The notes: a model not told the origin generated them from the letters alone. Counted from the stretch's first letter, positions 13,170 to 18,109 are shown. The stretch: DNA of 64,000 nt from Synechococcus sp. C9 (GCF_022984075.1 NZ_JALAAD010000001.1:2678501-2742500); one strand, 5' to 3'. Translations and numbers: made by a program.

Positions 13170-13811
13170 CTAGGATTCAGTTTGGGAGCGGCTACGGCTA
13201 GCCTGTTTCGCCCGTTGGGCACTGCGTTTGAGGGCATCGAGGCGAGCTTCATAGCGGCGGCGACGGGCTTTATCGGGGGTTTGTTCCGCCAACAGTTTCA
13301 GGGCACTGCCCAGGCTCTTGTAGGCATTCGGCAGGGTGTAGCCGTACTGGGTCGCCAGTTGAATCGCCCGTTCATCAGCTTTGATGGCAAGTTTCAGGGC
13401 GTTTTGTTTTTGGTTGCGCCGCCATAACCGATACCCCGCAAACCCGGTCAAGCCCAGAGACAGCAACAGCAGGAGCGTATCTTGCACCCACAGTTCCCCC
13501 ACTGTGCCTCCCAAGCCAATCGCCAGAGCAGCCATTTCCCACCCCTCCTTGGGCAGGGTATCGCTCTGGATGCGGGCGACCTCATGCCAAAACAGCAAAT
13601 TTCTTTGATCCAAAGCCAACTGTTCCCAGCGCACCGGGTCAATTTGCACCTCCACCTGATCCTTATCCACCTCTTCGGTAGTGATCACGGGGGGATTCAT
13701 GGCGGTGGAAGCCACAATCGTCACCCAACCCCGCATTTCCCCGGGTAGGAGCCCTTGCAGGCGGCGAAATTCCCCTTGGTAGGCATCCGCAGTGGCAGTG
13801 TAGGCAGGCAT
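13170..13811 (-). CDS. DUF3318 family membrane protein
   Basis: About 213 residues from an ATG at 13811; a TTG at 13862 would add 17 residues unlike the rest. The N-terminal half is soluble (GEMRGWVTIVAS, EVDKDQVEVQIDPVRW, LLFWHEVARIQ). Two adjacent hydrophobic stretches (about residues 95-135) follow, then a highly basic C-terminus (RRRRYEARLDALKRSAQRAK). The pattern matches the cyanobacterial DUF3318 family, whose function is not known. WHEVARIQ has an HE pair reminiscent of a metalloprotease helix, but no full HEXXH motif is present. Confidence 0.75.
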   Translation of the reverse strand: MPAYTATADAYQGEFRRLQGLLPGEMRGWVTIVASTAMNPPVITTEEVDKDQVEVQIDPVRWEQLALDQRNLLFWHEVARIQSDTLPKEGWEMAALAIGLGGTVGELWVQDTLLLLLSLGLTGFAGYRLWRRNQKQNALKLAIKADERAIQLATQYGYTLPNAYKSLGSALKLLAEQTPDKARRRRYEARLDALKRSAQRAKQASRSRSQTES

Positions 13812-13871
13812 GAACCGTACGTTCCTAATGGTTAACTCATGACTATTTACAACTATAGGCAAATTAGGGCG

Positions 13872-14135: not shown

Positions 14136-14194
14136 GGTGAGGTTGGGGTATATGATAGCTAAGGAATCCCTCTCTGTCGTTGCGTGAGTCCCCC

Positions 14195-17100
14195 ATGACC
14201 CAAGCGCCTGAACGTCCGCCCCAGACTACCGACCCGGCTATCGAAGCGGAACTCGACCACCGCATGAGCCGCTATGGGCTGAATCCATGCGGGGAAATAT
14301 TGGGTGCAGATTTCCATTGTGTGGCGGGAAATACGCTGTTAATTACTCGTAGTGGTTTGGGTTCGATTCAGTCTTTAGTGGGGCAAGTTGTTGAAGTTTG
14401 GAATGGGCGGCGATGGAGTGCAGTTGTACCCCTATTAACTGGGCGAGAACGGCAATTGTATCGAGTGCATTTCGGGGATGGTACTTGGTTGGATGTGACG
14501 GACTACCATCGCTTTTTTGTACGCCATCGTTTTGGCAAAGATTACTTGGAAATGACGACCCAAGAGATTCAAAACTATCTGGAATCGGGCGGCTACCAAC
14601 TGCATACGGAACCTTTTTGTATTGATTACAGGGACGGGGAATTTGTTGACCCCATTTGGGCATACACGTTGGGGCAACTGGTAGGCGATGGTTCCCTCTG
14701 GCAATCTCACGGTCAACCTCAATTACAATTGCGTTTATACGGTGCTAAAAGTTATCGTGCTTTGACTATTGCCAGTCGCTCATCAGGACAGGTTAGTTAC
14801 TATACTGAAAATCAGACCACTCCATGTTTGCGTTACACCGGATTTGCGGAAGCATTTAACCCAGAATGGGTGCGACAACTGAAGTATGACCCTACGGCTT
14901 TGGAGTCTTTAGCCCAGTGGAATCGTGAGGCGATTTTGCATTTTGTCGCTGGATTCATTGATGCGGATGGGACAGCAACTCCTAGTGGTGGGGTACGGCT
15001 TTATCTATCGAATTACGACCGAGCCTATCGAATTTATTTGCTCCTGCTAAAATGTGGGATTCGTTCCTCCATCAATCTCTGTGCTAAGGCGGGAACAACC
15101 ACCAATTTGGGTCGGCGGCATCAGGATTTATGGTATTTACAAATCACGGATTGCCAAGGGATTCCCTGCCAGCAAGTGGACACGACCCAGGGACATCAAC
15201 CACCCACGAAAGGGAAATGGCAAACGATTCGCAAGGTGGAATTATTACCTGGTTTCCATGACACCTATTGTTTCCATGAATTGGAAGTTCATAAGGGGGT
15301 TTTTGGTGGGACATTGACGGGGCAGTGTAATTTAGCAGAAATTCACCTGAATCAAATTGATCCCCATAACTTTGAGGAGCAGGAAAGGGCATTTACCGCC
15401 GGAGCTTTATCGGTAGCGGCACTGCTCAATCACCGATTTGTTGAACCGAGATTCCAGTATTCCCGTGAACTTGACCCGATTGTGGGGGTGTCTTTTACCG
15501 GGTTGTTTGACTTTTTTGTACACGCCTTTGGTAAGGAATGGTTGCAGTGGTGGGCGGCGGATCGACCGAAGAGTGAATTGGGTTTAATTTTGCGGCAAAA
15601 AGAAACGGATTATTTGCAATTTTGGCGGGATGTGGTGCATCGGGTGGTGTGGGATTATTGTGACCGGCATGGTCTGCGGCGACCCAATCGTTGTACAACG
15701 GTGCAACCGGCAGGATGTTTGGATCGCACGGCGTTACGCATTTTTGATCAGGGCTTACTTTATGCGGATGAAATTGTGGAACCTGGCAGTGGGGAAAGTC
15801 GAGGTTTAGGGTTGACGGTACGTCATGGGATTCCGACGGATACGGCTATTGCCAATCCACCGCTACCGCTGGTGCGAGTCACCCTGAAAAATGGTCGGGT
15901 TTTGCGAATGACCCCCAATCATCGCCTCTCGATTGCCGCTCAATGGGTCAGAGCCGATCAGCTAAAAATTGGCATGGAAATTGATTATTCTTTGGGTGAA
16001 TATCGCCATAGGGAAGATGCCCCACTGATCAGCCTCAATTTGGCTCAATATACCCGTGCGGGTCGGAAAGAATTTTTAGGACATGGGCGAGGGGTACTGA
16101 CCGCAGAAATCACGACACCTACCACTTTGAATCCTGAATTGGGTTATTTTTTAGGTTGCTTGTTTGGTGATGGTGCGATTAGTGAATGTAAGGATCGGGT
16201 ACGGTTTGCGTTTAATGCCAAAGAATTAGACTTGGTGGAGCGTTTACAGGGGATTGCCCAAAGGCAGTTTGGTATTGGTGGAACCATTAGCTATGACGCT
16301 CGTAATGGTGGCACAAGAAGTGAATTGGTTTTTGCTTCTAAACAACTGTTTGATTGGCTGAAGTTGAATCAATTACAGAAACCTAATAGCAAAGATTTAG
16401 AACGGATTCCCCTAGCAATTCGTAAGTCTTCCCGAGAGACAATTTTGGCGTTTTTCTGCGGCTTGATTGATACTGATGGCTGTGTACGGTCAACAGGTTC
16501 TCTGTGCATTGATTCTTCGAATGAAACCTTTATTCGCAATTTACAACAGGTTGCCGAAGCAGTTGGTTTATGCTTTAGTATTTATCACAACATCCAGGGG
16601 GAGAACTTCCAATATCAAAAGGATATGTGGGGCTTATCCCTTAGTCCTATGTGGTCACAACCGGAAGCTTTAGCTTATCTCAATACCCATAGTCGTAAAT
16701 GTCAGTTGTGTCCATTACCAGAACCCAAGCGTCAATTTGTCTTTCATCCCTATCGCATCGTTGATATTGAGTGGGAAACCACCCCTGATTACAGTTATGA
16801 CTTTGCGGTATCGGGCATAGATGATGATGATTCCTGGTACTGGCAAGGGGCGTTGAAATCCCACAACACCAAAAGTTTACTCACCAATGCCTCTCCCGGT
16901 TGGCATCCCCCAAAAGCCCAGCGGTACATTCGCCGCATTACGTTTGCCAAAAATGACCCGGTCGCCCTAGCCTGTATGGATTATGGGTACTCGGTGGTGC
17001 CGGGACAATCGGATAAGGATGACCAGGGCAATTTGCTCAATGACCCCTTTGATCCCCGCTGTAATGAATGGTTGGTGGAAATTCCGGTGGCGGTTTCCTG

Positions 17101-17527
17101 GGCGGATATTGCCGACGAAGCGGGCATAGATATTAGTCGGTTCAATGCCTTGGCGCAATTTGATTTTTATATGAATGTCCAACGGAATTACACCACCCAC
17201 AATACCTCGGCGACAATTGAATTTCGGGAGTATGAAATCGAGGCATTAGCCGACCGCATTTACCAAGCCATTCAACGGGATGAGGGGTATATTAGTGCAG
17301 CATTATTATCCCGGTTTGATGCCCTGCAAACTTTTCCCCGTCTGCCGTTTGAACCGATTAGCAAAGAACGGTATGAGCAGTTAGTTCAAGAGGTTTTACA
17401 ACGACGGAAATTGGCTGATTTTGGGGCATTGTTACGTCGCTATGACCAGCCGGATTTGCAATTGGTTCCCCAAGTTGCCGCCTGCGAAGGCGTGACCTGC
17501 GAATTACCTGCCCAACCCCCGGGTTAA
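14195..17527 (+). CDS. nrdJ: Class II (B12-dependent) ribonucleotide reductase, C-terminal half only, with two inteins
   Basis: Exteins total about 390 residues. They hold the radical-site block NPCGEI (thiyl Cys plus Glu), the second redox Cys in FHC/NLAEIH, the TKSLLTNASPGWHPPKAQRY segment, and a C-terminal CEGVTC pair that would re-reduce the active site. They match the second half of cyanobacterial NrdJ (usually about 770 residues or more). The first 380 or so residues, including the other active-site Cys and the rest of the barrel, are missing: an in-frame stop at 14156 excludes upstream extension. The N-terminus MTQAPERPPQTTDPA is unlike NrdJ. Either an N-terminal subunit is encoded elsewhere, as in split NrdJa/NrdJb enzymes, or the gene is broken. 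Starts TTG 14180 and ATG 14195 are both possible. Confidence 0.88.
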   Translation: MTQAPERPPQTTDPAIEAELDHRMSRYGLNPCGEILGADFHCVAGNTLLITRSGLGSIQSLVGQVVEVWNGRRWSAVVPLLTGRERQLYRVHFGDGTWLDVTDYHRFFVRHRFGKDYLEMTTQEIQNYLESGGYQLHTEPFCIDYRDGEFVDPIWAYTLGQLVGDGSLWQSHGQPQLQLRLYGAKSYRALTIASRSSGQVSYYTENQTTPCLRYTGFAEAFNPEWVRQLKYDPTALESLAQWNREAILHFVAGFIDADGTATPSGGVRLYLSNYDRAYRIYLLLLKCGIRSSINLCAKAGTTTNLGRRHQDLWYLQITDCQGIPCQQVDTTQGHQPPTKGKWQTIRKVELLPGFHDTYCFHELEVHKGVFGGTLTGQCNLAEIHLNQIDPHNFEEQERAFTAGALSVAALLNHRFVEPRFQYSRELDPIVGVSFTGLFDFFVHAFGKEWLQWWAADRPKSELGLILRQKETDYLQFWRDVVHRVVWDYCDRHGLRRPNRCTTVQPAGCLDRTALRIFDQGLLYADEIVEPGSGESRGLGLTVRHGIPTDTAIANPPLPLVRVTLKNGRVLRMTPNHRLSIAAQWVRADQLKIGMEIDYSLGEYRHREDAPLISLNLAQYTRAGRKEFLGHGRGVLTAEITTPTTLNPELGYFLGCLFGDGAISECKDRVRFAFNAKELDLVERLQGIAQRQFGIGGTISYDARNGGTRSELVFASKQLFDWLKLNQLQKPNSKDLERIPLAIRKSSRETILAFFCGLIDTDGCVRSTGSLCIDSSNETFIRNLQQVAEAVGLCFSIYHNIQGENFQYQKDMWGLSLSPMWSQPEALAYLNTHSRKCQLCPLPEPKRQFVFHPYRIVDIEWETTPDYSYDFAVSGIDDDDSWYWQGALKSHNTKSLLTNASPGWHPPKAQRYIRRITFAKNDPVALACMDYGYSVVPGQSDKDDQGNLLNDPFDPRCNEWLVEIPVAVSWADIADEAGIDISRFNALAQFDFYMNVQRNYTTHNTSATIEFREYEIEALADRIYQAIQRDEGYISAALLSRFDALQTFPRLPFEPISKERYEQLVQEVLQRRKLADFGALLRRYDQPDLQLVPQVAACEGVTCELPAQPPG
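14318..15325 (+). other. Intein 1 in nrdJ (336 residues, LAGLIDADG endonuclease)
   Basis: Starts at Cys (CVAGNTLLITRSG) and ends TLTGQ before the +1 residue Cys of the extein CNLAEIH. Block B is near VTDYHRFFV. The homing endonuclease has LGQLVGDGS and VAGFIDADG dodecapeptides. The terminal residue is Gln rather than the usual Asn, which is rare but known. The +1 Cys is the expected redox-active cysteine of the reductase, so the enzyme is inactive until splicing. Confidence 0.85.
15716..16867 (+). other. Intein 2 in nrdJ (384 residues, LAGLIDADG endonuclease)
   Basis: Starts at Cys (CLDRTALRIFDQG) after the extein VQPAG and ends GALKSHN before the +1 Thr of TKSLLTN. Canonical features: MTPNHRLSI as block B, LGCLFGDGA and CGLIDTDGC as LAGLIDADG motifs, and a C-terminal His-Asn. 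The insertion point lies in a highly conserved catalytic-domain loop. Confidence 0.88.
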
Positions 17528-17539
17528 ATTGCTAATTTC

Positions 17540-18109
17540 ATGTCCTCTTTTCAGTTGATCGTTGGTCTGGGTAATCCGGGGAGTAAATATGCGTTTACCC
17601 GTCACAACGTTGGTTTTATGGCTGTCGATAGACTCGCCAAAAGATGGAGTATTGCTTGGCAGGAAAAAAGTAAATTGCACGGGTGGATTGCCCAAGGTAA
17701 CGAAGTGATTTTGCTGAAGCCGAATACCTATATGAACCATTCGGGACAGGCGGTGCAGGCGGTCTGCCATTGGTTCAAAATCATGCCCCGTTATGTATTG
17801 GTAATTTATGACGATTTAGATTTACCCTTTGGCAAATTGCGCTTACGAAAACAGGGTTCCGCCGGGGGTCACAACGGCATGAAATCCATTATTCAACATT
17901 TAGGCACCCAGGAATTTCCCCGCTTACGCATCGGCATTGGTCGCCCAGTAGAGGGAGAGAGTGCCCACTACGTTTTAGAAGCGTTTAATAGTGAACAAAA
18001 AGAAAAATTACCTAGCATTTTAGACCAGGCAGTGCGGGTGATTGAACTAGGAAGAAAACAGGGTTTAGACTACGCTATGAATGAGTGTAATGCTTGGAAT
18101 ATTGAATGA
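17540..18109 (+). CDS. pth: Peptidyl-tRNA hydrolase
   Basis: 189 residues, the usual length. Motifs: LIVGLGNPGSKYAFTRHNVG with the catalytic His, LLKPNTYMNHSG, and YDDLDLPFGKLRLRKQGS leading to GGHNGMKS with the catalytic-pocket Asp, His and Asn. It releases peptide from tRNAs that drop off the ribosome, recycling tRNA in the cytoplasm. It starts 12 bases after the nrdJ stop, so the two may be co-transcribed. Confidence 0.96.
   Translation: MSSFQLIVGLGNPGSKYAFTRHNVGFMAVDRLAKRWSIAWQEKSKLHGWIAQGNEVILLKPNTYMNHSGQAVQAVCHWFKIMPRYVLVIYDDLDLPFGKLRLRKQGSAGGHNGMKSIIQHLGTQEFPRLRIGIGRPVEGESAHYVLEAFNSEQKEKLPSILDQAVRVIELGRKQGLDYAMNECNAWNIE

Follow-up and report, generated by a model that had tools for sequence, protein, structure and literature searches.

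The NrdJ C-terminal half and its partner gene

The 64,000-nucleotide stretch of the Synechococcus sp. C9 genome analysed here (NZ_JALAAD010000001.1:2678501-2742500; hereafter, the window) contains on its plus strand a stop-to-stop frame (14159-17527) that, according to the original prediction made from this DNA, encodes only the C-terminal half of the class II ribonucleotide reductase NrdJ. As the reductase part of this family is not recognized by Pfam, we used TIGR02505 (adenosylcobalamin-dependent ribonucleoside-triphosphate reductase (RTPR), monomeric class II) instead, and its match was indeed restricted to profile positions 387-723 (345.8 bits; cut-off, 340.05). The open reading frame (ORF; 14195-17527) starts at an ATG (MTQAPER...) that is common to all 7 C-halves of the genus and yields a product of 1110 amino acids, or 390 amino acids after the predicted removal of two inteins; because it is conserved at such length with 7 orthologues, the ORF does not reflect chance. 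The frame is intact, as had been predicted, but the ribosome site that was also claimed is not evident (that is, no obvious Shine–Dalgarno sequence was seen upstream of ATG 14195).

Two inteins and the C-terminal CEGVTC motif lie within this uninterrupted frame, in agreement with the original prediction. Extein 1 (14195-14317) runs from the MTQAPER start through the helix ELDHRMSR and the finger loop GLNPCGEI to FH, and holds in NPCGEI the codon of the radical Cys (14288-14290; C408 of Lactobacillus leichmannii RTPR by alignment to PDB 1L1L). Intein 1 (14318-15325; 336 amino acids, LAGLIDADG type, Cys first and ...GTLTGQ last) is inserted at an H/C junction directly ahead of the active-site Cys equivalent to C419, which is the first residue of extein 2 (15326-15715). 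Intein 2 (15716-16867; 384 amino acids, LAGLIDADG type, starting CLDRTALRI and ending ...LKSHN) interrupts a G/T junction (QPAG/TKSLLT), and extein 3 (16868-17524) reaches the C-terminal redox Cys pair, CEGVTC (17483-17500), the ACEGxxC form of which is common to the genus of the window and its sister genus (G007).

A TIGR02505 search of the organism’s own genome (2.96 Mb, 4 contigs, 99.98% complete) located the missing part, including the partner active-site Cys, at C1:2606737-2609115, on the same strand and 83.6 kb upstream of the C-half start. This gene, which we refer to as NrdJ-N (and the window gene as NrdJ-C), is an uninterrupted ORF of 792 amino acids that matches profile positions 17-353 (as 17-280 and 277-353), carries the C119-type Cys (SGAYNCTS) at residue 105 and holds one intein of 394 amino acids, leaving a predicted mature chain of 398 amino acids. 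The suggestion that the N-half might end in a split-intein fragment did not hold: the chain terminates in ...FLELYNTDPQQARGYLRELLLAQGS (last residues, ...YLRELLLAQGS) at a plain stop, and no split-intein fragment or motif, as would be expected of gene fracture by a split intein, was found at the NrdJ-N end or the NrdJ-C start anywhere in the genus. When the two halves are aligned with the sister genus’s unsplit protein, no essential part is seen to be lost between them. Coverage of TIGR02505 over its whole length is reached by the two halves jointly, neither sufficing alone, and the catalytic Cys residues of RTPR are all present across the pair (that is, the C119-type in NrdJ-N; C408, C419 and CEGVTC in NrdJ-C), the predicted activity of which is adenosylcobalamin-dependent reduction of ribonucleoside triphosphates.

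Both halves are present, unlinked and at the same two loci in 6/6 genus genomes that are >90% complete, two of which are single contigs; in a seventh genome (83% complete), the C-half alone was seen. The sister genus has a single unsplit nrdJ frame of 797 amino acids. Within the genus, C-halves invariably start MTQAPER, leading into ELDHRMSRYGLNPC, and N-halves invariably end near ARxYLRELL, followed by a variable tail. Intein content varies among members, with neither half of one genome (G003) having an intein and five members (L043, L044, L046, L047 and L048) having a further intein at LNP/C, just before the radical Cys, that is absent from the window’s genome and from G003; the split enzyme is therefore independent of inteins. 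An intein at this same NP/C place, with the same start CVTADTW, also occurs in viral nrdJ (L244 and others).

Selection on both halves is purifying: within the genus, dN/dS ranges over 0.04-0.11 (N-half) and 0.00-0.08 (C-half), with some of the dS values approaching saturation. In the 19 genomes having the split, PF02867 (the family of class I and dimeric class II reductases) gave no protein match, nor was a class III reductase (NRDD) found in the window’s own genome, with search controls responding in each case; in the window’s own genome, neither a class I, a dimeric class II nor a class III reductase gene was therefore detected, and the split NrdJ is the only reductase found. Given that an N-half gene exists and no other reductase class was found, the pair is best regarded as a split essential enzyme with retained function rather than a relic, as the original prediction had favoured.

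The two halves need not share one history. Between two genus members (G001 and G006; L038, L042, L043 and L048), synonymous differences amount to 60% in the N-half and 11% in the C-half, the latter (with its NP/C intein) showing zero amino-acid changes in the compared columns. From these alignments, the halves differ in history between the two genomes and, being unlinked, recombine separately, perhaps through intein homing.

Each of the two loci has the same gene neighbours in every genus genome compared. Flanking NrdJ-N are, as named from their sequence, pipX on one side and, on the other, a small membrane-protein gene and then uvrA. NrdJ-C is followed by pth (17540-18109, plus strand) and preceded by a conserved, divergently oriented neighbour (13170-13862, minus strand).

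Position of the cut and the predicted two-subunit enzyme

To place the cut in the fold, we turned to L063, an unsplit relative whose AlphaFold2 model (mean pLDDT 73.6, about 86-94 near the cut) found its best structural match in PDB 1L1L. The cut maps to the loop 386-390 of this model, between helices 378-385 and 391-398, and thus falls after strand 342-347 and before both the finger loop (Cys406) and strand 417-422. As the finger loop links the two five-stranded halves of the barrel (PMC9669993), NrdJ-N would comprise the first half-barrel and the region preceding it, and NrdJ-C the finger loop, the second half-barrel and the redox tail. By residue correspondence, the two Cys of the active-site disulfide reside on different chains.

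We suggest that each precursor excises its own inteins in cis and that the mature chains (398 + 390 amino acids) associate non-covalently into one RTPR-like unit. NrdJ-N would contribute the first half-barrel with the C119-type Cys to a shared active site, and NrdJ-C would contribute the finger loop with the thiyl-radical Cys, the C419-type Cys, the second half-barrel and the redox tail. Splicing is predicted, as are, on the basis of conservation, chain association and activity, and a functional two-subunit enzyme is the most likely product of the pair.

Distribution and spread of the split

A class-wide TIGR02505 survey showed best matches only and could not reveal splits; we therefore replaced it with a profile built from the tail of split N-halves (A2), run against 390 cyanobacterial genomes. 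Nineteen genomes scored >=97 bits and the rest <=81, the one exception being a divergent copy, itself unsplit, at 90. Of the 19, 13 do not belong to the window’s genus and are sporadically distributed over five families (for example, Microcoleus sp. FACHB-1515, a Pseudanabaena metagenome-assembled genome (MAG) and a Leptolyngbyaceae MAG). In these 13 genomes the halves are adjacent: the N-half, a stop, a short spacer, an ATG, about 25-33 codons to GLNPCG, an intron and the remaining C-half follow one another, with a purine-rich Shine–Dalgarno-like sequence ahead of the C-half ATG in most of them (a frameshift additionally breaks the C exon of one MAG, G423).

The intron at NPCG/EI is present in 13/13 split genes outside the genus compared with 27/101 unsplit genes, and its site and 5′ sequence match the interruptions of many unsplit Nostocales nrdJ. 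Many of the latter were initially candidates for the split and were rejected, as the first frame stops exactly at NPCG and the gene is intron-interrupted; the nrdJ of G015 was likewise rejected (intron only). The intron of the Microcoleus split gene contains an endonuclease-like ORF (Phage_endo_I and NUMOD3, both weakly matched), and in the adjacent form such an ORF lies inside the intron, about 25-33 codons past the second start, not between the halves; in the window’s genus, no endonuclease gene of the kind expected from an Aeh1-type insertion (see below) was seen at the cut ends. One further gene, L050 (G014:C2:97785-100062), has a frameshift in the same loop; its frames overlap, it lacks both the intron and a tail of the split type, and its break may be a sequencing error, frameshifting or an independent split.

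Phylogenies of the junction and of the remainder of the gene differ. A tree without the junction (669 columns, 71 rows) places the window’s genus together with G007 (support, 100) and disperses the split genes, which fall beside unsplit ones from the same lineages, such that the split label outside the genus requires at least 7 changes; a single clade of all split genes is rejected by this alignment (approximately unbiased (AU) test, p about 1e-6). In the junction-only tree (81 columns), by comparison, the 18 split rows form one clade (support, 99), and even with the tail removed (48 columns) the tree that holds the split rows together has the better likelihood. Only at reference positions 361-420 does the genus protein resemble other split genes markedly more than it does unsplit genes or G007. 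In same-genus pairs of split and unsplit genes (G045 vs G031, G234 vs G029), identity is 83-94% outside a block of about 150 bp, and this replaced block stops at the intron site or <=16 bp from it. A homing intron that co-converts the exon upstream of it would be expected to leave just such a footprint, and co-conversion of this kind has been described for phage introns (PMC2988022). Both marks of a mobile intron with co-conversion (that is, sporadic distribution and a replaced exon tract) were thus found in species outside the window’s genus.

Viral genes offer a candidate source for the tract. In a tree with 49 viral tails, one branch (support, 98) parts the unsplit cyanobacterial genes, together with eight host-like viral rows, from the split and most viral rows, and in one viral contig (L187; IMGVR_UViG_3300018933_000001), nrdJ is unsplit and shares its tract type and intron start with the split genes; no barrel-split nrdJ was found among the sampled viral contigs. 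The L187 gene and that of a second contig (L266; IMGVR_UViG_3300018890_000001) have the same intron at NPCG, the L266 intron being only about 240 bp. The same intron 5′ sequence at NPCG also occurs in three viral contigs (L268, L270 and L271) in reductase genes that look unlike RTPR, and this correspondence suggests that one intron family tracks the radical-Cys codon across reductase classes. Among cyanobacteria, one genome (G143) has, besides a normal nrdJ elsewhere, a second, divergent, unsplit nrdJ with inteins (L181; C1, about 777.8 kb), the junction of which is of the split type (SPEKKALFLSLYQESIEAAKAYLKSL) and the C terminus of which (ACEGLIC) resembles that of the window’s genus; this copy is possibly a relative of the tract donor.

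Taking the mosaics and trees together, we infer that a phage-type nrdJ donated the intron and its flanks, that the cut arose once within this tract and that homing distributed the split. In this scenario, the split would have arisen in a phage-type nrdJ stretch with an intron at NPCG/EI; homing of the intron among cyanobacteria would also have converted about 150 bp of upstream exon; and the window’s genus would have gained the split before radiating, then lost the intron and separated the halves. Spread of one split allele by intron homing with flank conversion, followed by these two changes in the window’s genus, is the most likely course given the sequences compared, and the viral origin of the tract is its least secure step. 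Overall, we assign a probability of about 0.85 to the interpretation that this locus provides the C-terminal subunit of a class II reductase (B12-dependent, monomer-type) that is split in nature, originated by one split in a phage-type intron tract and spread by homing.

Several observations weigh against this interpretation. The tract is short (76-81 columns), and a constraint common to the cut ends may in part explain its clade; the viral origin depends on one branch (support, 98) in a noisy tree with weak inner forks; and the intron survey counts are not phylogenetically independent. No trace of the intron remains in the window’s genus. Furthermore, Rfam gave no intron classification, the group I label being a tentative one taken from published work on the Nostoc punctiforme gene (PMC12702839).

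Other explanations account for part of these data. That the C-half gene is truncated relative to its family would suit a relic of a broken nrdJ, with another reductase (for example, a second complete nrdJ or nrdAB) supplying DNA synthesis; we give this next to no credence, as it is contradicted by the intact N-half, by dN/dS far below 1 in both halves, by the conserved catalytic residues and by the lack of any other reductase found in the 19 split genomes. The halves could instead be joined covalently into one NrdJ chain by a split intein or by RNA trans-splicing. Split-intein NrdJ is known from metagenomes, which speaks for such joining. A split intein is also used by cyanobacterial DnaE (PMC12702839). 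The NrdJ-N end and NrdJ-C start, though, lack intein motifs in the genus, the adjacent form has a stop, a Shine–Dalgarno-like sequence and an ATG between the halves, and the N-half locus gave no match to any RNA family (Rfam), leaving covalent joining very improbable.

With regard to the spread, several independent splits at a tolerant loop, with convergent likeness of the tails, would be compatible with the shortness of the tract and with a loop that may indeed tolerate breaks (compare the frameshift of L050, which has neither intron nor split-type tail). We nevertheless consider such recurrence unlikely, given that the uncut upstream part of the tract (TPEKK..FLxLY) is shared too, that grouping the split rows improved the likelihood even without the tail and that same-genus pairs show a sharply replaced block ending at the intron. 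The scattering of the split label over the tree could also arise by ordinary horizontal transfer of the whole split gene pair, with no local conversion with the intron, but, outside the tract, split genes cluster with unsplit members of the same lineage (G045 and G058 with G031; G131, G179, G211 and G234 with G029), as the rest of the window-genus gene does with G007 (support, 100), and transfer of whole pairs is accordingly a decidedly improbable source of the pattern.

Returning to a single split spread by homing, physical linkage in the conversion tract would be sufficient to explain why split and intron travel together. Beyond linkage, the stop and restart just before the intron may keep ribosomes of the long frame off the 5′ splice site and thereby help the intron; translation across the 5′ splice site is reported to interfere with splicing in the title of a reference given in PMC3984707. 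We lean slightly towards a more general formulation, in which gene splitting is infectious: a phage-derived intron homing to the radical-Cys codon would convert the exon upstream of it and thereby turn an intact host nrdJ into two cistrons, and the two-subunit state would outlive the intron as an obligate heterodimeric essential enzyme.

Relation to known split reductases and significance

NrdJa/NrdJb of Pseudomonas, also found in other Proteobacteria, has been called the sole split reductase found outside viruses; catalysis and cofactor binding lie wholly in NrdJa, and both chains are needed in vivo (PMC4520616). The likeness to this system drawn in the original prediction is loose: both are class II reductases built from two polypeptides, but the NrdJa/NrdJb cut (734 + 229 amino acids, one operon) removes only the C-terminal redox part, whereas the window enzyme is cut inside the barrel beside the radical Cys, belongs to the monomeric RTPR family and is encoded by genes that are unlinked in the genus. 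The nearest functional analogue is NrdA-a/NrdA-b of Aeromonas phage Aeh1, where insertion of the homing endonuclease mobE split the gene and the two chains reassemble into a functional enzyme (PMC2988022, PMC3653736). There, too, a catalytic subunit is cut in a critical region and a homing endonuclease is involved; the Aeh1 case, however, concerns a phage enzyme of class Ia, the split gene of which contains the endonuclease gene, in contrast to a cellular class II enzyme that is the sole reductase found and has its cut in an exon next to an intron. Thermus phage phiYS40 likewise encodes a class II reductase in two adjacent ORFs (nrdJ-a/nrdJ-b), although their lengths (797 + 199 amino acids) place the cut near the C terminus and not in the barrel.

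A group I intron in the reductase gene of Nostoc punctiforme is credited to Meng et al. 2007 by later papers (PMC12702839, PMC3984707), and we find the nrdJ of N. punctiforme NIES-2108 (L110) interrupted at NPCG/EI; that gene is unsplit, and the Microcoleus split-gene intron differs in being longer and in holding the endonuclease-like ORF. RTPR of L. leichmannii (PDB 1L1L) shares the family, fold and catalytic Cys of both halves taken together, but is a single chain.

In the literature searched, no published report of a barrel-type split in a cellular nrdJ was found. If our interpretation is correct, this would be, within that literature, the first cellular ribonucleotide reductase cut in the catalytic barrel, at the joint of the half-barrels and with the active-site Cys on separate chains. 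It would provide a natural test of half-barrels as independent folding units and of the way in which a radical enzyme copes with a joint left open next to the finger loop. A 2014 review saw little evidence for bacterial introns crossing between bacterial species (PMC3984707); counter to that statement, the nrdJ mosaics constitute evidence of such movement. Across many genomes of these cyanobacteria, a gene fission seemingly travels horizontally by way of a short conversion tract linked to a mobile intron, and selfish DNA may in this way have given rise to a new protein complex.

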